64,000 bases of DNA from Monodelphis domestica. Lineage: Eukaryota > Chordata > Mammalia > Didelphimorphia > Didelphidae. The stretch is taken from assembly GCF_027887165.1 (NCBI RefSeq), contig NC_077235.1, positions 52,167,895-52,231,894 on the forward strand. The letters run 5' to 3'. Under the pieces are notes generated by a model, which saw only the letters and a list, made by a program, of their open reading frames with translations, made no database searches and was not told where the DNA came from. This document shows, piece after piece, positions 7,260-60,929 of the stretch. Made by a program: the position numbers and the translations under genes. Position 1 is the stretch's first letter. Each line of letters opens with the position of its first letter.

Positions 7260-8150
7260 GTCTTTTTAATTTCTTTTTTTTAATTTAGAATGTTTTTTCA
7301 TGGTTACATGATTCATGATCCCCTCACCCCCGCTCTTTCTTCCCCACCTCCCAAATCTGACAAGCAATTCCACTGGGTTATATGTGTAGCATTGCTGCTA
7401 GTAGAAAAGTCCATTACATTCTATTGAGCCATAATGTATCAGTCTCAGTGTATAATGTTCTCCTGGTTCTGCTCCTTTCACTCTGCATCCATTCCTGGAG
7501 GTCTTTCCAGTTCACGTGGAATTCCTCCACTTTATTATTCCTTTGAGCACAATAGTATTCCATCACCAACAGATACCACAATGTGTTCAGCCATTCCCCA
7601 ATCAATTGGCACCCCCTCATTTTCCAATTTTTTGCTACCACAAAGAGCTCAGCTATAAATATTTTTTGTACAAGTTTTTTTTCCTTATTATCTCTTTGGG
7701 GTACAAACCCAGCAGTGGTATGGCTGGGTCAAAGGGTAGGCATTCTTTTAAAGTCCTTTGAGCATAGTTCCAAATTGCCATCCAGAATGGTTGGACCAAT
7801 TCACAATTCCACCAGCAGTGTATTAGTGTCCCAATTTTGCCACCTCCCCTCCAACATTTATCACTTTACTTTGCTGCCATATTGGCCAGTCTGCTAGGTG
7901 TAAGGTGCTACCTCAGAGTTGTTTTAATTTGCACTTCTTTAATCAGGAAGGATTTAGAACACTTTTTCATGTGCTTGTTGATGATTTTGATTTGTCTATT
8001 GGGGAATGGCTTGATTTTTTGTAAATTTGACTTAGTTCCTTATATATTTGGGAAATTAAACCTTTGTCAGAGAGTTTTGTTATAAAAATGTCCTCCCAGT
8101 TTGTTGCTTTCCTTTTAATTTTGGTTGCATTGGTTTTGTTTGTAATGGTC
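7260..8150 (-). mobile_element. Truncated L1 3' end
   Basis: Same subfamily as the copy at 930. The minus strand of 7641-7414 encodes VAKNWKMRGCQLIGEWLN and YLLVMEYYCAQRNNKVEEF, the ORF2 C terminus. An imperfect direct repeat (near 7253 and 8143) may be the target-site duplication. Confidence 0.8.
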
Positions 8151-10052: not shown

Positions 10053-10306
10053 TTAGGCCTGGAACCAGCTGCAGCCGGGGCGGGGCTCGGAGTCGGTGTC
10101 ATCGGAGGCGGGGGACTTGGCCCGCTTCTCAGAGGATTTTGCGGGGGCCTTGCCCTTGCCCTTGCCCTTGCCTTTGCCCTTGCCCTTGCCTTTGCCCTTG
10201 CCTTCAGCTTCATCCAATTTGGCCTCAGCCTGCTCTTCAATAAAATCTTCCAGAGAACGTGCCATCTGGCGCTGGCTATGGGACATGAACAGCCTCATAC
10301 AGGCTC
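10053..10306 (-). CDS. ARHGAP36: Coding exon 12 (residues 598-681), GK repeats and stop
   Basis: Acceptor ATTTTTCAG at 10307. It encodes [20 protein letters not shown], an acidic helix-like [16 protein letters not shown], nine GK dipeptides (about residues 633-650), and a tail ending [12 protein letters not shown] then TAA. The GK block comes from a GGCAAG hexanucleotide repeat with a few third-base changes, so its length may vary between individuals. Confidence 0.78.
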
Positions 10307-12381
10307 CTGAAAAATATGAACAATGATTAACAATTATTGTATAATCCTTTCTATTTTCCTTAAGAACCAGAGCCCAGGGCTGGAATGGAGCTGTGTATCA
10401 GGACTGGCAGTGGCTGGCAGGGACCTCTGGGGTGGGGCAAGTCGTGAGGGCCCCTGCCCAATGCATCCCCTGAAACATACTGCTAAACTGTGGACTCACC
10501 ACGGCTAGAGGAGGCAGTGTCAGAGGCCCGAGATCCATGGCCAGACTTGAAAGGACGCAGACAAAAGATTGTTTTGGAGGTCTTCTCGGCTTCCTTTTCA
10601 GCAACACCAGGGAGCCTCAGAAAAGAGAAGGGTGGGAAAAGAGTGGGACCCTGGGCTGCTGCTGCTGATGATGCCACTGCTGCCTTGCTGGTACTTGCCT
10701 TGCTAGTACTTGCCACAGGCTCCTCAATTTCTTTGGGTGCGCCACCTTGGGCACCACCTTGGGCACCGCCTTGGGCACCACCTTGGGCACCACTTTCCAC
10801 AGCCCTGAAATTGGAAAGGGCAAGTTATTCCAAGGTCTTTGATCTATTTTTTTCATTATCTGTATTCAAGTAGAAGAATAATAGATTTATTTGGGGGGAA
10901 GAAGGAAAAGTAGATTTAGACAGAATCACTTTCTTTGGGGAACCAGGAAGAGCCACAAATTCTCTATTTTGGGGTTATTTAGATATATTCTCCTACTGGA
11001 TTTTAAAATGGAAATTATATCCCCTCCCCTCCATATAAACACTGCTTTGCATTTTTTTAAAAATCAGCATAAACATTTACTCAGTGGATCAATGAATGAA
11101 GGAGAGTGTCACTGAATACAGTTTGGTGTAATCCCTCTTCTTTTTTTCCCTGCCTCTCCTCACTTCCCCTTGTTGGAATTGGCTTAAGCAAACCAAAGAG
11201 TCCAGCCCAGCCTAAGATGATCAACCTTTCTCCTGAGCCACTCACGAGGTAGCAATGGAGGATGTGGCAGATTCAAGGGCAGAGCCGGAGATCGATGCAG
11301 ATGCAGAGACACATTCAGAGGCAGAAGTGGATTCGCTATCAGAAGCTGATGTCTCAGGTACTGCCAAGGGCAGGGGTGCCTTGAATTTTTGGCGCAGAAG
11401 ATATTCAATGACCTCAGGGTCGGTGTGCCACAGGCTGAGGAGAACCTCGCTCTGCACATCAGGGGGCACCTAGGAGAGGAATTGGCACCTCAATGGACCA
11501 CCCAAAGTCAAGAAAGGTTGTCTTAGAAGTAGTGGGTTCTGCCTCACTGAAATTCCTCTAGGTCCCCTACTGACCATCTTTTCCACCCAGGACTGTCTCC
11601 AGGCCTCCTCTGCTTTTATGGTTAGAGAATCCTTGAAATTCTTTTACTTGGTGTTCCAAGACAGTGGAATACCAAATACTATCAATAGTCATTACCATGG
11701 TGGGCAGGGAAGATCATAGTTGACAAGGGCTAATAATCACTAGAGCCATTTTAGAGAGTTTGGGGCCTAGAAAGTCTTCCTACCCTCCTATGCTGAATAG
11801 GAATGGAGTATTTGGGCTTCTTCTCCTACCATGTAAAGGGCCTGGAAATTCTCAATCAGTGTCTGGAGCACAGTGATCATGGCTGTGCTTTCCTCCATCC
11901 CCAGAACTTTAGTGTCCTTCTCGTGCATTTTCTCCTTCTGCAGGAGGTTGGGTCCAAAAATCATAGCCAAATTGGAGGTGGTCATCCTGTTGCCAGAAAT
12001 CTAGAGAGGAAAATGAACAATGAGCAGGAAACATGAGAAGTGAAGTGAGGAAGAAGAGTGACATGTCCAACATTCTGGTCACTGCTTTGGTAGCTATCCT
12101 CTGATCCAATCAGATCAGTCTCCTCTTCATTCCTCACACGTGCCACCCTGTTGATTTAGAGTCAAAAGATCTTGGTATTAATTGAGCCTCTTTGCACTTA
12201 CTGGCTGGGTGAAGTTCTCCCACCATCCTGCCTAAAGTATCCGTCTACCTGCCTAAATCTCGCCCATCCTCTAGAGTACTTGTTCAAGGCCTGCCTCTTT
12301 CCTAAAGTCTTCCCTGAGACAGTTATGGTACAGTATAAGACATGTCCACATCCATTCCCACCCCAACTCACTCCCTTTCTG

Positions 12382-12450
<69 letters not shown>

Positions 12451-15400
12451 TCCTCGGCACACCTATGCTCAGGGACAGCATCACCTCGCCCAGCCCTCTG
12501 CCTTGCCCTTTTACCATCTGGCCCTTAGGTCCAATGGTGTCTTCAGAATGCTTGGACACTTTATCCAGGAACTGCAGGATACGGTACAGAGTATCACAGT
12601 TGCATGGGGGCAGAAGGAAAATCAGCAGCTGCAAAACAGCCTTTCTCTCAGTGTTAGGCAGGCCTGGGGAGAAAGAGACTGAGCATGAGACTGAGCCATC
12701 TTTGGCCATTAGGAAATGTGGCTTGGCAGCTGCCTGAGACCTAAGCAAAGTCCATTATGCCTACACGGAAAGATTCTGGAGGGGGCCCACCATGGACTCC
12801 TTTCCTCTGTCCTACAAGAGTGGCTGTCCCCTCTCTATGGATCAAGCAAGTCCTTCCCAAGTGTGAACCCCCTGCTTTGCCATTCATCCCATGTGGATTC
12901 TATCTCAAAGCTCTTTGACCCTGGGGAGCTCAAGGGTGGGGAGATGTTAAGAACTGACTCACTGGCAGCTCGAAGAAAAACTTGGTAGAACTCCCGGGGC
13001 ACCAGGGGCTCACTCAGATCCCGCAAAAACTCCTTAAGCAGTGCTGCCACATCATGAACGCTCTGGGTCTCATCCAGCAGAACCTCCACGCCTTGGTCAA
13101 ACTCTTCACGAAGCTGAAAGGAAGAAGAGGGGGAAGACTAAGGCACCTGCCCTGATGCTTTTCCCTCCCCCTCTACCGTGGTTCCCTCCTTTCAGTCTTC
13201 TGGGTAGGCAGAGCAGTTTGAGGGGCTCTGGGAAGGCCTCCCTGCGGCAAAGCGCCTTTCCAGACAGCCTGCTAGAGACCTACAGTGAAAAAAGAAACAC
13301 TCAAGTGCAGCCAGGAGAGCTGGGATAGACTTGGCCCACATTTGATCTTGGGTAAGTCCCTTCCCTTCTCTGGCTCAGAATTTCCTCATCTATAAAATGG
13401 GGCCAACAATCTTTACAATGCTGATCGCAGAAGGTGGCTGTGAACAAGGTGATTTACAAAGCTTCAAGTGCTCCAACTAATGCCAAATTCAGAAATCCTT
13501 TTAGCTCGAGGCAGCCTGGTATAGTAGGAAAATCTCAGGCCTGTTAGGAGACTTGAGGGTTCTAGTCTTGGCTCCCCCACTTACGAGCTATGTGACCTAG
13601 GCCTCTCTTAGAATCAGTGTGTTCATCTGCAAAACTGGGATAGTAAATGGGTGAGTGTGGCAGAACTGAAACTCTGGTCATGTATTTCATGTTCTAGGTA
13701 ACCCTTTTTTTGTCTTTGCATCTCCAGTGCCTGGTATATAATACATAACTGCTGTGCTGCGGAACTGTGGGGGACACAAAGATTCCTAACACATGATCTC
13801 TGCCCTCAGAGAGCTTCTAGTTTAGAAAAGGAGACGAGACGAGATGAGACAAGGACCCGAGCAGTGACTGGAAGAGGCAGATGTGATAAGAAATAGGAAC
13901 AAAGCAGGCACATTTCATTAGAGGTGTTCAGAGGTGCTCCAGCAAGGGGACTTGTTCAATTAAGCTCAAAGAACTCATCAGACACATAAGGTGCATCCAT
14001 ACAGCATGAAGCCCACACTTTCTCTTCACCTCCATTTCCTGGGTGCCCCTCTGCCCCCTCCATCCCTTCCCTCATGGGCCCCATGGCATTGTTCCCTCCC
14101 AATTCCCACTGGGCCCATTCTCTATCTCATCTCCCCCCACAAAAAAAACTGGGAAGGGCCATTTCTCCCTCATACTACCAGGATCCCTCTGTGAGTAATT
14201 TCTCCCATCAGATTAGAAGCTCTCACCTAAGAAGCTCTTACTTAGATTTAGATCTGGAGGGGACCTTAAAGGTCACTGAATCCAACCTCAACAATGAGGC
14301 CCAGTGAATTGAAGTCCCACAGCTAATGTCAGAGGCAGGATTTGAAGCCAGGTCTTCCTGACTCCATATCCAGCACCATATCCACTATTCTATGCGGTCT
14401 CTCTCAGAATGGCAGAAATAAATAATAAGAGAAAGGACTATGTTTAACACTTCCCTTTATCTCCTGCTGCCCAGACCTCAAAGCATAGGACAGAACTCCA
14501 TTGTCTCACCAAGTGATGGAGAACATAAGTAGAAAAATTGATTTCCTCATTCCTGTTCAGTGAAAATCTTTCTTCCAAAAACATGGAGAACAGGCTCCAT
14601 TACCTAGCATTTGTCCCAATAATTCTAACTACCCCCTCCTGGTCCTTTCTCCTGACATTTTCCAAGTTCATTCACTTGTATTCTCTGGTTTCTAATGCTG
14701 TTTTGTTATTTTTTCTCTTTGCCTCTCCCTGTTGCTTCAGGACATGGAAGTCAGTTCACCAAGAAGAGCATCTTAGGGGAAAGAGCCAACTGGGTAGGTC
14801 CCCAGGGGGAGCACATCTTGACTGTTCCTGGGGGACCCCCGGACTGGTCCCTAGACCCCACCCTCATATTTTTCAGGTTTTGTCTCGGTATCTCCAGAAA
14901 TTGGTCATGTAAATGTCTCTACCTCCTTCACTCTCTTCTTAGAGCTTCCAACGCGGAAAATCCCCAGGGTCTTCAGGCCTGAAAGAATAATTAGACAAGA
15001 CATGGAACAAAACTAGCCCTGAGTGCCAGCCTACTCCCCGCCTTCTGCTACCTACTGTCCACTACCAAGACAAGGGTTCCTTCTCTCATCCATGGGTTAT
15101 TTTGATGCAAATTATGACTAGAGCCCAGTAGAGTGACACTGAAATTCTTCACTTGTATCTCCATATCTCTCTAACAGTGAGTAAGATGGAGGTAGAAAAT
15201 TCTCTGACTCTGGCAGGCTTAAAGTAAAGACTAGATAACCACTTGATGAGTGTGTTGTGGACAGTATGGGATTCTTGTTCATGTTAGGCTCGGACTAATT
15301 GGCCTCTGAGGACTTCCCAACTCTATAAGGGTAGGAACTGTTGCCTCTCATCAAACTGAGCTATCCTAAATTCTTCTTCCCCAGATTTTCTCCCCTTTTC

Positions 15401-27400: not shown

Positions 27401-30400
27401 TGGGATGGAAATCCAGCAGCCCTTGCCTGACTCCCCTCCTGAGCTGGCCAGGCTGCCATTCCAAATTTGGTAAGAATCTTTCCAGTTGCCCAGGGCAGAC
27501 CAAGGGATACTGGGGGGACAGGTATGCTGATGTCCTTTTGGTCTTACCTTTGGGCATCTTGATAGGCCAAGATGGAATCTTCTCCTGCAGGCAGAAAAAA
27601 GCTATCTCCCGGAGCCTGTCACGCTCCATCTCGGAGAGATTCTGAATGAATACGGCCTGCATCCCTATGCCTCCTCCGAGTCCAGGGACGCCACCAAGAG
27701 TAGTCACTAAAGGAAGCACAAACAGAGAAACAAGTTGGCAATTTCCCCTTTCTGGACTTGCCTGTCTCCAAGGCATCTCCTCTTGTTCCAGGTTGAAGGA
27801 GCCCAATAGAATCATCTTACTGTCACAGGCCCAAAAAATGGGGGTGGGGGTGCGGCTCCGGGCAGCTAGAGAGGGAACTGAAGACAGTTGTTTGGAAGCA
27901 AAAGCCAAAGCCCTTCACCCTATCTTCCCTCCAGTCACAGCCTTCCAGGTCAGGATCTATGAGCAGAGACAGCCCCTAGCAAACCTGGGAAGATTATAAT
28001 CAACATCATTCCTCTCTTGGACACAGATACTCCTTCCCCCAGCTGTTTAGGGTTCTCTAATGCGACACTCTACCTAGCCCAGTTAGAATTAAATTATTCA
28101 ATATTTCCAAAGTGCTTTGTGTACCCCATGAGAGAAGGGATGTAAGTATTACTACCCTCCTATCCCAGAGGAGGAAACTGAGGCTCATAGGTTTAAATGA
28201 CTTGTCTAGGATCGTGTAGCTTTGAGGTATTACAGTGGGCTCTTGAATCCAGATATTCGGGCATCGAATCAGGTCTTGTATATCATGCTCTATTGCTTCC
28301 AACCTCCATTCCTTGAGGACTCCAAGAGAAGTCTACAGAGGAGTGCCTTGTAAGGCAGGTGCCACTGTTATTCCCATTTTATAGATGAAGAAACTGAGGC
28401 TGAGAAAGTTATTTTCCTAGGATCACACCAAAAGGAAATGTCTGAGGCAAGACTTGAACTCAAGACCCCAAACCAGTTGTGGAGCTCTCTGCATCTCCTT
28501 TTATTCCTACATCTTTCAATTCTTCCTGCCCCCTCCAGCCTGTTGTGCCTTTCCCTCTCCTTTTTGTCTTGAAAAGACTAGTGTGAGAGTCATTAATTCA
28601 TTAAACAACAAGGAGGGCTGATAGTGGTGTTATTTTCCAAAGGCCACAGTCATCACACACTTAGAGGACCTGAGACAATTGGATTAACACATTAACTCAG
28701 ATCAATTTATCAGATTAACTAGTCTTCACCCAGTGGCCCTGAGGAGTTGAAATAATGAATAGAGAAAATTCTAACAGGCAATTTTGTAAGGAACTATGAA
28801 GCTGCCCTTCCTGACACCATCATCCCAGGTGAGTTGGTCTCACAAACACATAAGACCCTTATCTTTCTTGAGGTATGGCAACTTTGGATGATGTACAAGC
28901 TTGTATTTCCTAACTTTCAATGAAGGTTGGAGGGAGGGAGGGGGTGAGGTGGGGGAAAAATTTAGTAAGGGCTTTTGCTTGGGAAATGATGGCCCCGGGT
29001 AATCCCCAAAGCAGCCAAATGTGAAATAAATATTGGTAAAGGCCCAGGTTAAAGGGGATGCAGTCTTAGTAAATCCAACATGGCCACATGTCAGCCATCT
29101 CAGGGAGAACCAACTAAATTTAGAACAGAAAAAACTATTCTGGGATAAAGGATCCCAGAAGCCCCATGAGGATTGAGGCCATTCACATCTATATTTTCTA
29201 TCCCCATTGCACTAAGCACAAGACTCTGCACACAGTAGGTGCTTCCTAAATGTTTATTATGTTGTCATGTAAACGTGGCCTATCCCACAGATTGGAGACA
29301 CACAGCAGGCACTTAGTAAATGTTTGAGTTGAATTATCTCCACTTTGAACCTTCCCCTAGTTTAAAACATAAGGGCTCTGGCCCCTGCAAGGGCTTAATA
29401 AAGGTTTCATCAATATTGTATCTTCTCCAATTTGGAGCACAGGATCTGTATGTAGTAGAAGTATAATAAATGCCTGTAGAGTTTAATAAAAATAGCTCTT
29501 CATTTTGTATCTCCCCTCATCCCTAAGAAGGGACTTATGCATAGAGCAGACAACCAGTCAATGTTAGTTAGGTGAGTATTGCACACAAAAGATGCTCAAT
29601 GGTTGTTTAATTGATTTATCTCTACCTTCCATTTTCCCCCCATCCCTGAGAACAGATATCAGGACACAGTAAGAACTCAAAAAATTGTTAATTGGCTAGG
29701 TAGTGCACATGGTGAGCATTTGATAAATTCTTATTTAATTGAATTAGTTTAACTTTATATCTCCTATTCAGCTCTGTATACAGCAAGCAATTAATAATTG
29801 CTGTGTATACAGTAGACATGTAATCAATGATTATTGAAGTGATCTTAATTTCTCATCATCCCCAGCTCTGAACACAGGTACTGCATACACTAAGCACTGA
29901 ATAAATTCTAGTTGAGATGGCTTTGCACACAGTAGGTGCTTAATAAATGGTGGTTGAATTGGAAAAACTCAATTTTGAACCTTCCCCAGCCTACAGAGAT
30001 GCTCCAGATAGATTGGTTAAATAGAAGTCTGTATACAGAAGGCCCTTAATAAATGGTTGGGAATGAAGTCATCTCGATTTCTATTCTCTCTAAACCCTGA
30101 GCATAGGTCTATGAATACAGCAAGCACTTAATAAATGTTAGTTGGATAAACTGCACAGAAGAGTTTAATGCAGAATTACGGAACTGACACCTTATTTTTC
30201 GCTTCTCCTCCAACTACAGCTATAGGTCAGGTGTTTGATACATGTTGATTGAACATACAGTACTTAATAGGCAGGGCTACCACAACATGAGATTGTCTCG
30301 ACTCAGCCCAGAACACATCAGCTAGCTGCTTAAAGAATGTTAGTTGCACAGGCTTTTCATACAGTAGGCAGTTAGTAACTTACTTTTGAAATCAATGATC

Positions 30401-33400
30401 TCAACTCTTCGTTTTCCCCATATTGAACACAAGATTTTGCATAAAGTAAGTTTTGAATAAATGTGAGTTGGTTAGCCTCTAGTGAGAATACAAACTTAAC
30501 AAGTGCTTCTTGAATTGTCTATCTCAAATTTGCTTTGTCCACAAGGTGCTGAACACAATAAGCAATTAGTATTACCTGGGGAGGTTTGGTATACATTCAG
30601 AATAATGCATGGTAATTGAATTTATTTCTCTCACCAAAAAATTATGTAAAAAGTAGGTATTCAATAAATGCAGCTTAATCTTGCTTCACCAATAGCAAGC
30701 ACTTATTTGGTCTATATTGAATTGAATATATCGACTTTGCAAATCTTCAGCCTGAACACATGGTTGTATATACAGTAAGCACTTAATACATGTCAGTTGC
30801 CCAGATTTTGCAGAGTACTGCTTGACAGGTCACAAATCATTTACAAATTAAATTCTGTCAACTTCCCATCTTCCTAACCCTGAACATGAGGCTAAGCATA
30901 CAGTAAGTACTTACTAAATATCATCTGAAAACAGTAGGTGTTTAATGAATGATTGTTAAATTGATTTGTTTCAACTATAATATCCCATGGGGTTTTGCAC
31001 ACAGAGGTGCTTACTACATGCTGTTTAAACCTGATCTGTATACAGTAGGCACTTAATAAAATCTTTATTCAATTTAATTATCTCAATTTTTCAAAGATCC
31101 CCAGCTCTGAGCATATGGCTCTGCATACAATAGGCATTTAATAAACACCACCAGTTAGCTAGGCTTTGCACACATTAGGTGCTTAAAATAGGGCTTGAAT
31201 TGGATTATTTGTTTTTGCATCTACCCGAGACCAGCACACAGGGCTCTGTATACATTAAGTGCTTAATAAAGATTCAATATGGTATATGGCCTTTAAATTG
31301 ATTTGTGTCAATTCTGCATCTCACATGAAGCTTAGTACACAGTTTAATAAATTTTGGTTGAACAGGCTCTGTATACCATAGGCCCTTAATAAAGAATTCT
31401 TTAATTGAACTGTCTCTACTATGCATCTTCCCTAATCTTGAGTAAAGAGCTCTGGACATAATCATCATTTAATAAATGCCTCTTACCTAGGCTCTGCATA
31501 TAGTAGATGCTTAATAAATAGCTGTTGAATTTTCCATTTTTCCTGGGCCTGGAATTCAAGTTTCTTTTTTTTAAACATAGTAGATAACTTAATGTATGTT
31601 AAGTAAACAAGTTCTGTATACAGTAGGCACTCAATAAGTAATTTTAATTGAATTGCCACAACTCTGTATCTCCCACCTAAAATGAACATGGAACTTTATA
31701 TACAGCAAGCACATAATAAATTACTTACACTTGGAAAACAGCAGGTGCTTAATAAATAGTTGGGCCATCACAACTTTGAACCTCCTTCCTGCAGGGTTCT
31801 GAACACAGTAGATGCTCAGTGTATATTACTTGGTCTGCTTAATGAGTGGCTTTAAAATGAATTCCCTGACTTTTAAATCTCCTTCTATCCAGAACATAAA
31901 GTTCACAGTAGGTGCTTAATATATGTTAAATTCTGTGCATGGCAAGCACTTAATTAATGTATTTATTTACTTGAATTTTCTCAAACTTCTCTCTTTACTA
32001 ACCCTGAGTGCAGGCCTTCACACAGAGTAAGTACTTATTAGGCTCTGCATACAGTAGGTGCTTAATAAAGTGACTGGATTACCTCAACTTTGCATTTTCC
32101 CCTATCCCAGAACACTAGATTCTGCACAGATTAAGTACCTAATAACTATTAGGCAAGCTCTTTACATAGTCAGTGTTTAATAAATAATTCCTTACTTGAT
32201 TTATCTCAATTTTACCATCTCCCCCAAACTCTAACTCGGGCTTCTGCACACAGTAAGCACTTAATAAAAGTTCATTAACCATGTTCTATACACAATAGAT
32301 GTTTAATAGTTGTTGAATTGACTTACCTCAACTCTGCATCTCCCAGAGCTCAGGGTGCTGTATGCAGGAGGCACTACATAAAGGTTAGTTGGACAAGCTT
32401 TGAACACAGTAGGTGCTTAATAACTGGTTGTTGAATTATTGACTTTAACTTTATAACTCAGATTTGATATTTATCACCTGTGTGCCCCTGGGTATGTGAT
32501 TTCCCTTCTTTGGGCCTCAGTTTCCCTATCTATAGAATGAGGGGGTTGGAGCAGATGGCCTTTGATCCCCAAACCTTTGAAACTCTGCTTATCTCCCACC
32601 CCAAGAACAGGAGGACACAGTGCATAGTAAGCACTTGACAAAGGCTAACTAGGCAGACTTTGCATACAGTAGGAACATAGCAAATGGTCAGGAAATTGAA
32701 GTGTCAAGGAACAGCATTATCTCCACTTTGCCTCTGCCCCAGCCCCAAAGGACTTGGCACATAGTAGGCGCTCAATAAATGTTAGTGGGGCAGGCTCTGC
32801 ACACAGTGGGCATTTAACCCCAACTGGCCAGGGGCTCTGCTGCTAGGGGGTGGGCAAGAGGAGGGGGGGTGGGATGCACCTACTAGGCCCCAATGGTTTG
32901 CAGAGGCCTGTCCTGGAGGGAAAGGGAGCCCCCTCCATGTCTCCCTCCCTCCCTCCCTCCTCCTGCCACCCACCCTTGGGAAACCACTTAGTATGCAGAG
33001 GCTATTGCCAGTCCTGCTGTCTGAACTAGCGGTGGTAGATAGCTAGTGGAGAAAGTTCTGGAAGGCAGCTCTGGCCTTCCTGGCCCCGCCTTCCTCCTCT
33101 CTCCTCTCCCCCCTCCCTTTCCCAAGCCTGTCTCATCCACTGTCCAGGAAAAGGAAAAGGCCGCCTGCTGCTCTGCCACACAGGCACCCAGACTCCTGGG
33201 GGCTTGTTTTTCATCTAGAGGGGAGGCTGGGGTAAGGTGGGGCACAGACTGGGTGCCCACCAGAGTAGCCCTGGGGGTCAGGCCCTTGGGTCCATCAGTC
33301 CCTCTGGCCCCCTCTCTGCCCCCAGACCCCCTCAATGCCCTGAGAGCCTGGCAGGTGCTGGGGCCTGGTGGGGGGCATTTCTATACCAAATGAGAACCTG

Positions 33401-37980: not shown

Positions 37981-38740
37981 GATATAATAGAAAACTAGCT
38001 TCAAATCTTGGCTCTGCCTCTTATTAACTGTGCACGCCCCTGCCACATCTTGGTGCCTCAGTTTCCCCATTTATAAAATGAGAGGGTGGGACCAGATGAT
38101 CTCCAAGTCAGATATTTTTTAGGGAGGGGAGGGGGAGAAAACTGGCTTTTAAATCTGGCTCTGACTCATTCGCTATGTGACAAAGAATAAATCTCTTCCT
38201 GGTTTCTGCCTCAGTTTCCTCATTTATAAAATGAGGGGGTGGGATAAAATGAGCTCTAAGCTTTGAAAATCAGGTATTCTCAGGCAGAAAGCATTGCTTA
38301 AATGCCTACTATGAGCCAGGCACTGAGCTAAACTCAAGTATTGAGTGGAGAGCAGTTTCAGGGGAGGGAGTAGACAGAAAACTGGCTTTTAAATCTGTCT
38401 CTGGCTCTTCTTAGCTGCGTCACTATAATCAGATTCCCTTTTCCATCAGAGGGCCTCAGTTTCCTCATTTATAAAATGAGGGGGGACGAACCAGATGATC
38501 TCTAAGATCTGAAAATCATTTTCTTGGTGGGGGGGGGATGACAAAATTGAATTTTAATGCTGCTTCTACTGTGAGACTGGGAGCAAAAATCCCTTCCTCA
38601 TCTCTGTGCCTCAGTTTCTTCATCTATAAAATAGGGAGGTGGGACTAGATGATCTTAGCCAGTCCTTTCACCTCTAAAAGCCTCAGTTTCCCCTTATGTA
38701 AAATAGACCAGTGATTTCTATTCCTAGCTACCCCACAGGG
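37981..38740 (+). repeat. Local tandem set of MIR-like units
   Basis: At least four successive units share 'aaaactggcttttaaatctg' or a close variant, 'cctcagtttcctcatttata' and 'aaatgaggg..g.gggac.agatgatctc'. They start near 37990, 38138, 38378 and 38550. Shared non-MIR linker text (G-rich 'gggagggg' plus 'gaaaactggctttt') points to duplication in place, not independent insertions. Confidence 0.7.
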
Positions 38741-55348: not shown

Positions 55349-57355
55349 TTTTAAATTTTATTTTAAAAATATTTTTCCATGGTTACATGATTCATGTTCT
55401 CTCCCTCCTTTCTTCCCTCCCCGCCTGCCAGAGTTGACAAGCAATTCTACTGGGTTATATATATATTATCACTCAAAACCCATTTCCTTATTATTCATTT
55501 TTGTAATAGAGTGATCCTTTAAAACTCAAACCCCAAATCATACACACATATAAACAAGTGATAAATCATATGTTTTCTTCTGTTTCTACTCCCATAGTTC
55601 TTTCTCTAGCTGTGGATAGTGTTCTTTCTCATAAGTCCCTCAGGATTGTCCTGGATCATTGCATTGCAATTAGTAGCAAAGTCAATTATATTTGATCATT
55701 CTGTAATGTTTCAGGTACTGTGTACTCCTGGTTCTGCTTATTTCACTCCACATCAGTTCATGTAGGCCTATCCAGTTCTCATAGAAATCCATCAATTCAT
55801 CATTCCCTATAGCACCATAGTATTCAATCACCATCATAAACCACAATTTGTTCAGCCATTCCCCAATTGAGGGACATCCCATCATTTTCCATTTTTTTGC
55901 TACCACAAAAAGTGTAACTACAAATATTTTATACAAATAGGTCCTTTCTCATTTTTTTAAAACATTATTTTATTTGGTCATTTTCATACATTGTTCATTG
56001 GAAACAGATCATTTTCTTTTCCTTCCCCCCCACCCCTTCCCTAGCTGATGCGCGATTCGTCTGGGTATCACATGTGTCCTTGCTCTGAACCCATTTCCTT
56101 GTTGTTGGTATTTGCATTAGGGCGCTCATTTAGCTTTTCTCCTTGATCATGTCCCCTCAACCTCTGTAGTCAAGCAGTTGCTTTTCCTCCGTGTTTTTAC
56201 TCCCTCAGTTAGTCCTCTGCTTGAGGATAGTTGTTTTTTTCTCTTGTAGATCGCTGCAGGTTGTTCAGGGACATTATAAAGCCATTACTGGAGAAGTCCA
56301 TTACGTTCTCTTGTACCACAGTGTATCTGTCTCTGTGTACAATGTTCTCTTGGTTCTGCTCTCTCACTCTGCATCAACTCCTGGAGATTATTCCAGTTCC
56401 CATGGAATTCCTCCAGTTTATTATTCCTTTGAGCACAATAATATTCCATCACCAACATATACCACAATTTGTTCAGCCATTCCCCAATTGAAGGGCATCC
56501 CCTCATTTTCCAATTTTTGGCTACCACAAAGAGCGCAGCTATGAATATTCTTGCACAAGTCTTTTTCCTTATTATCTCTTTGGGGTACAAACCCAGCAGT
56601 GCTATGGCTGGATCAAAGGGCAGACAGTCTTTTAGCGCCCTTTGGGCATAGTTCCAAATTGCCCTCCAGAATGGTTGGATCAATTCACAACTCCACCAGC
56701 AATGCATTAATGTCCCTACTTTGCCACATCCCCTCCAGCATTCATTACTTTCCTTTGCTGTCATGTTGAACAATCTGCTAGGTGTGAGGTGATACCTCAA
56801 AGTTGTTTTGATTTGCATCTCTCTGATTATAAGAGATCTAGAACACTTTTTCATGTGCTTATTAATAGTCTTGAATTCTTTAACTGAAAATTGCCTATTC
56901 ATGTCCCTTGCCCATTTTTCAATTGGGGGATGGCTTGATTTTTTGTACAATATAGCTCTTTGTAAATTTGAGTAATTAGACCTTTGTCAGAGGTTTTTGT
57001 TATGAAGATTGTTTCCCAATTTGTTGCTTTCCTTCTAATTTTAGTTACATTGGTTTTGTTTGTACAAAAACTTTTTAATTTGATGTAGTCAAAATTATTT
57101 ATTTTGCATTTTGTGACTCTTTCTAAGTCTTGCTTGGTTTTAAAATCTTTCCCTTCCCAAAGTTCTGACATGTATACTATTCTGTGTTCACCTAATTTGT
57201 TTATAGTTTCCTTCTTTATATTCAAGTCATTCGTCCATTCTGAGTTTTCCTTTCTCATTTTAAAAATCTCTTTGGGATACAAACTTAGTAGTGGTATTGC
57301 TAGATCAAAGGACATGCATTCTTTTAAAGCCCTTTAGGCATAATTCCAAATTGCA
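55349..57355 (-). mobile_element. Outer L1, interrupted by a second L1
   Basis: Perfect 12-bp duplications GAAGGCAGATTT at 55337-55348 and 57356-57367 bound this element. Its body is split at 55955/57248 by the inner copy and resumes with 'ctctttgggatacaaactta'. The host site is itself a minus-strand MIR-like relic (about 55270-55336 and 57368-57420). Confidence 0.92.
55956..57247 (-). mobile_element. Inner L1 nested in the outer L1
   Basis: Perfect 14-bp duplications TCCTTTCTCATTTT lie at 55942-55955 and 57248-57261. Minus-strand reading 56950-56285 gives a long open ORF2 C terminus (ECWRGCGKVGTLMHCWWSCE, AIALLGLYPKEIIRKKT, MEYYCAQRNNKLEEFHG), so this copy is relatively young. It is 5'-truncated, about 1.3 kb. 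Confidence 0.92.
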
Positions 57356-60542: not shown

Positions 60543-60929
60543 GGAGCTTACATTCTAATGCAACTTGACAACCACTTATTAAGGCACTAAGCTAGGTGTG
60601 GAAAATTAGAAGACAAATGGGAAATCATCCTCATACTCAAGCAGCTTCCATTCGCCTGAAGAGTCAGCTCTCTCCACTCAATGTCCCACTCTTCGCTTAG
60701 CACAATATCTGGCACATAGTAGGTGCTTGATAAATATTGAACGATTACTCTCCCAAATGAGTTTACCAAAGCATCTCAAGCATCTACTCCTGATTCAGGG
60801 GCTAGCTCAGAGACCTCAAAGCTTACCCTGGTACCTTCTGTCACATTTCCTGAGCTGCCAACAGAGCCATATCTAAGAAGTGACACTCTAAAATCAGACA
60901 TAAAAAGAAAACTCTGCTTTCTCTAGCAC

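Follow-up and report, generated by a model that had tools for sequence, protein, structure and literature searches.

LINE2 retroelements belong to the CR1/L2 clade, and their dispersed copies are single. The locus described here, in a stretch of 64,000 nucleotides of Monodelphis domestica DNA (NC_077235.1; hereafter the window), holds many copies of what resembles a LINE2 tail in a row, and it raises the question of how such a row could have arisen, how quickly it grew and whether it now does anything. Our reading, to which we give a probability of roughly 0.8, is that it is a TE-derived tandem repeat: a single LINE2 end that would have dimerised, multiplied in a burst, frozen, and then decayed with no indicated function.

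Some thirty decayed units lie head to tail and fill 3.6 kb of the + strand with a consensus period of 124 bp (Table 1), as seen by wraparound alignment, a table of units, nhmmer and relaxed TRF. A tandem array at 29195..32818 had been claimed in the initial annotation and is confirmed at nearly the same coordinates; a regular period, the lack of which had been named as grounds for rejecting it, is found by wraparound alignment, the unit table and relaxed TRF alike. The array's wraparound score is 825, whereas ten dinucleotide shuffles score 13-16 and its reverse complement 18; of 16 further segments of 3.75 kb, 15 score 12-22, and the one that reaches 198 overlaps the array. These controls were scored with the array-derived consensus and without refitting, which favours the array, but relaxed TRF, which fits its own consensus, agrees with the wraparound result. 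The 124-bp consensus was first drawn by eye and was left unchanged by a wraparound round with linear gaps; affine gaps changed three of its bases, and 3474 aligned bases were then 74.7% identical to it, a figure that takes in two rows left out of the set of 30 units used below: a fragment of 16 bases at 29172-29187 and, at 32443-32576, the unit that carries a SINE-like insert.

Standard settings pass the array by. Default TRF gave no row for it, and default scoring with the score floor brought down to 30 gave no array row of period 30 or more, whereas two of three further settings detect it. The loosest reports 29476-32423 with period 112, 26.1 copies, 45% matches and a score of 570, the highest among its printed rows of period at least 30, and also gives many weak rows elsewhere; a second loose setting returns the array in pieces with periods of 114-124. 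An nhmmer model built from the units gave 31 matches above the inclusion threshold, 30 of them inside the array and all of these on the + strand, partly by construction; the only one outside lies at 60702-60739.

Table 1. Features of the window discussed in the text.
Feature	Position	Strand	Basis
Tandem array, 30 units of the 124-bp dimer, final unit incomplete	29188..32817	+	Wraparound alignment, unit table, nhmmer, relaxed TRF
Proposed parent insertion, a LINE2-like 3' end at the array's left margin	29159..29258	+	Alignment to provisional LINE2 3' consensus
Typical unit in good preservation, half A followed by half B	29843..29966	+	82% identity to unit consensus; best nhmmer match, 8.3e-27
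Second well-preserved unit	32326..32442	+	81% identity; nhmmer 1.4e-26
SINE-like insert within a unit	32460..32585	+	Limits by eye; unit alignment falls to 58% identity; nhmmer relatives in the window
Last unit, incomplete	32720..32817	+	80% identity; stops at unit column 101 of 124
Three RhoGAP frames	11788-13137	-	Pfam, one under gathering score

Twenty-seven of the 30 units measure 96-128 bp and the other three 143-160 bp, the shorter ones being without parts of one half or the other. Each unit is made up of two halves, as had been proposed, a half A of 72 columns and a half B of 52; the two align over 42 columns (score 61), and both contain a tail like CAGTAGGTGCTTAATAAATG. The A tail (called at 12 or more matches of 21) is recognised in 28 units and the B tail in 27, and the portion of A upstream of its tail in 27 (at least 17 matches of 33), so that the earlier figure of some thirty is right for units but not for tails, of which there are about 55. 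Tail matches are spaced mostly at about 42 and 82, or at sums of these. Such a layout bears on the idea that many 5'-truncated LINE2/MIR insertions landed independently side by side, perhaps through an element favouring its own tail as a target. The array tails do resemble LINE2/MIR-like ends elsewhere in the window, but all 30 above-threshold matches in the array lie on one strand, the truncation points fall into two fixed classes with half-units alternating, and halves A and B are distinct at two diagnostic positions; instead of copies each with a truncation and flanks of its own, there is a single orientation and a fixed half-unit phase, and we regard independent insertion as highly improbable.

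The consensus halves differ at four diagnostic positions in all. At position 30, T is found in 21 of 27 A halves and G in none, as against G in 12 and T in two of 26 B halves; at position 32, 18 of 25 A halves have A and two have T, while T is present in 22 of 25 B halves and A in none. The other two positions are less clear, with the A base in 17 and 18 of 28 A halves (11 and 9 have the B base) and the B base in 19 of 25 and 14 of 28 B halves (5 and 11 have the A base), and this considerable overlap at two of the four positions counts against the order of events that we favour. Nevertheless, because the halves keep partly distinct diagnostic bases, the internal duplication of 42 bp most likely predates amplification. 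The SINE-like insert is younger than the array, since it interrupts a unit; nhmmer gives 20 matches related to it in other parts of the window, all passing the inclusion threshold, and a search for a target-site duplication around its limits, which were set by eye, gave a best local match of 16 columns (score 16). Four matches related to this insert are clustered at 37989-38660, where loose TRF settings also give rows of period 153 and about two copies.

If the array is one structure, what was its parent? The left edge aligns to a LINE2 3'-end consensus with a local score of 62 (200 shuffles: mean 18.5, maximum 32) and 75.5% identity over 94 columns (K2P 0.30); the A half aligns to it over 57 columns with a score of 54, and 200 shuffles run for the joined consensus reached at most 36. 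The LINE2 consensus was a provisional one and the sole element sequence aligned. Of the two parents named in the initial annotation, LINE2 or MIR, LINE2 is the better one by this provisional consensus because the left edge continues into the LINE2 body, further 5' than the repeated units do, and growth from a single insertion fits a left edge running into a body that the units lack. The parent was likely one LINE2 copy, as judged against the provisional LINE2 consensus. The array differs from that consensus at several shared places, and the variants that array and left edge have in common and that the consensus lacks may reflect a LINE2 subfamily difference. The wider claim of an origin in an ancient retroelement 3' end that later diverged is supported by the match of the unit to the provisional LINE2 end, together with the body at the left edge, and by the distance of the units from their own consensus. 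A scan of 28800-33300 with Rfam (evalue mode, limit 1) matched no LINE2-derived microRNA family; its five weak rows, far below gathering scores, all start at or beyond 32845, outside the array.

The units themselves record how the array grew. On average the 30 units differ from the consensus by 0.247 (K2P 0.309, ts/tv 1.39), and pairs of units differ by 0.379 whether they are neighbours or taken from all pairs (permutation P 0.45), with no signal of neighbour similarity at lags 1-10 among the 30. Thus neither the closer likeness of neighbours nor the higher-order units of a homogenised satellite are seen. Pairwise distances are not more widely spread than after column shuffling (sd 0.0446 against a mean of 0.0466; P 0.7 of 200). 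Most shuffles lack a pair of units as close as the closest one here, at 0.215 (P 0.09), which counts against a pure burst; the mean pairwise distance also falls short of the 0.413 expected of a simple star, perhaps through parallel mutation or a partly shared history. When single-unit duplication without gaps was simulated, growth over 5% of the history reproduced the observed contrast in 12 of 60 runs, which makes the bound rough, growth over 10% did so in one of 60 and growth over 20% in none of 60; under single-unit duplication, growth would thus be confined to roughly the first 10% of the history.

Beyond the single-unit process simulated, multi-unit exchange or conversion could both erase neighbour similarity and allow longer growth. 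The array might accordingly have grown slowly, or blocks of several units might have been exchanged or converted over a long period, keeping the units alike until a later freeze: block shuffling would likewise remove neighbour similarity, and a published survey favours gradual growth of TE-derived repeats (PMC3389668). Against this, gradual growth by single units beyond about 10% of the history is disfavoured by the simulations, and the units (K2P 0.31) are about as diverged as the left edge and six other LINE2-like places in the window (0.19-0.33 from the provisional consensus, the six being a choice among the top-scoring tiles that is biased toward high identity), so that little earlier time is left; we consider such slow growth or late freezing unlikely. 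At least one of the six places, near 61.7 kb, resembles a MIR end. At usual substitution rates, a K2P of 0.31 would correspond to something like a hundred million years.

The history that we favour would begin with the insertion of one LINE2 3' end on the + strand, its left edge still visible against the provisional consensus. Tandem duplication of 42 bp within its tail would then have given the 124-bp dimer, an order suggested by the diagnostic bases, and a short burst of amplification in place would have raised the dimer to some 30 copies, with unequal exchange or slippage during replication as the probable mechanism. Turnover would then have stopped, leaving the units to drift independently to 25% divergence, to lose pieces by deletion and, in one case, to gain the SINE-like insert, and what remains would be a fossil tandem repeat with no function indicated.

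Of ten stretches submitted to Pfam, three match the RhoGAP domain, one under its gathering score; they are frames on the - strand at 11.8-13.1 kb. Eight distinct PDB sequences were matched by one exon stretch, and the named ones are Rho GTPase-activating protein 7 and Rac GTPase-activating protein 1. The naming of this predicted gene goes no further than the RhoGAP domain; a closer paralogue may lie in the ARHGAP6/28/36/40 group. The array sits between an exon-like frame with a GTAAG donor at about 27.55-27.71 kb, which has no Pfam match, and a CpG-rich stretch at 40.5-42.5 kb (CpG o/e 0.40-0.71, against 0.16 for the window), and it therefore probably occupies a 5' intron, where its tails run antisense to the gene; that this is intron 1, as had been stated, is likely. 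Beyond the RhoGAP frames, an open - strand frame at 10053-10397, with no Pfam match, encodes a (GK)n run that stems from a hexanucleotide repeat of CCTTGC (TRF 10148-10202). Other open frames on this strand, at 1282-2515, 7414-7865 and 56285-57333, resemble decayed parts of LINE1 ORF2.

It is tempting to see in the tails a field of antisense poly(A)-like hexamers, as the initial annotation did, and AATAAA is indeed enriched on the + strand, with 22 copies to four on the - strand (means of 3.3 and 3.9 and maxima of 10 and 11 in 500 mononucleotide shuffles; at most 11 in other 3.63-kb stretches, both strands considered). ATTAAA, however, is commoner on the gene-sense strand (13 copies on -, one on +), and the two hexamers combined come to 23 on + and 17 on -. 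Nor does each unit carry TTAATAAA, as had been claimed: the array has 16 copies on the + strand, and the motif survives whole in 15 of the 60 aligned tails. The poly(A) reading of the array is thus a weak one. A broader proposal is that the array has been retained for regulation, as a set of polyadenylation or binding sites, for instance, that would put a stop to antisense transcription. Besides the strand bias of AATAAA, it can draw on the TTAATAAA core, where conservation is somewhat higher than in the remaining A/T columns (0.852 against 0.793), at an uncorrected P of 0.016 and in an alignment anchored on these very cores, and on a preprint that reports a truncated IL18R1 isoform arising from a LINE2 insertion (PMC13232192). 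Intact cores nevertheless number 7 and 8 of 30, no excess over the 7.4 and 8.9 predicted from column identities; A/T sites are generally better kept (0.80-0.81 against 0.67 for G/C), and ATTAAA is enriched on the opposite strand. We see no good case for function in the sequence, and a kept regulatory element appears very improbable.

If the burst reading is true, the array offers some 30 parallel and apparently neutral mutation histories that started from one ancestor at one locus. Furthermore, a large old array can be missed by default tandem-repeat settings, which bears on the questions of which elements form repeats and how fast these grow. It is a tentative thought, and one that we lean against, that TE tails in mammals commonly undergo bursts of tandem growth followed by freezes of some hundred million years, which standard finders and identity-filtered censuses miss, the reported bias of TE-derived tandem repeats toward young elements being partly an effect of detection. 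Among the matches listed, and by title only, no title on tandem or ancient repeats, LINE2/MIR or poly(A) names a LINE2-tail array, although we make no claim that such an array is absent from the literature.

The array has the tail motif and, at its left edge, the body of a LINE2 3' end, but its tail is dimerised and tandem. Classical satellite arrays have head-to-tail units of about 120 bp, and the opossum array is like them in unit size and orientation; it differs in being small, probably intronic and without neighbour similarity at lags 1-10. LINE-1 repeat arrays, described as a 170-kb LINE-1 cluster in a mammal, species-specific in its place (PMC5848613), are likewise clustered LINE sequence, whereas the opossum array is built of a short tandem unit of the tail. 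The closest known kind is that of the human TE-derived minisatellites and satellites, which, according to the survey, make up 23% of minisatellites and satellites, come mostly from Alu, ERV and L1, and, where derived from Alu, have a mean of 2.3-2.4 units, with 17 in one AluJo case (PMC3389668). Both consist of head-to-tail units, established here by wraparound alignment, the unit table and TRF, and, on our reading of the opossum array, arise by local tandem duplication of part of a TE at a single locus. That survey required at least 95% identity among units, a census threshold and not a biological definition; the opossum units, about 30 in number and from a LINE2 end, are 75% identical to their consensus and differ pairwise by 0.379 on average. 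The survey argues for gradual expansion while conceding that old arrays may be missed, whereas the opossum pattern fits one burst, and it allows the last unit of the slippage class to be no more than 10% short, whereas the last opossum unit has 101 of 124 columns. The opossum array thus appears to be a rare-looking case of a known kind, the TE-derived tandem repeat, far more diverged than the arrays of that survey.
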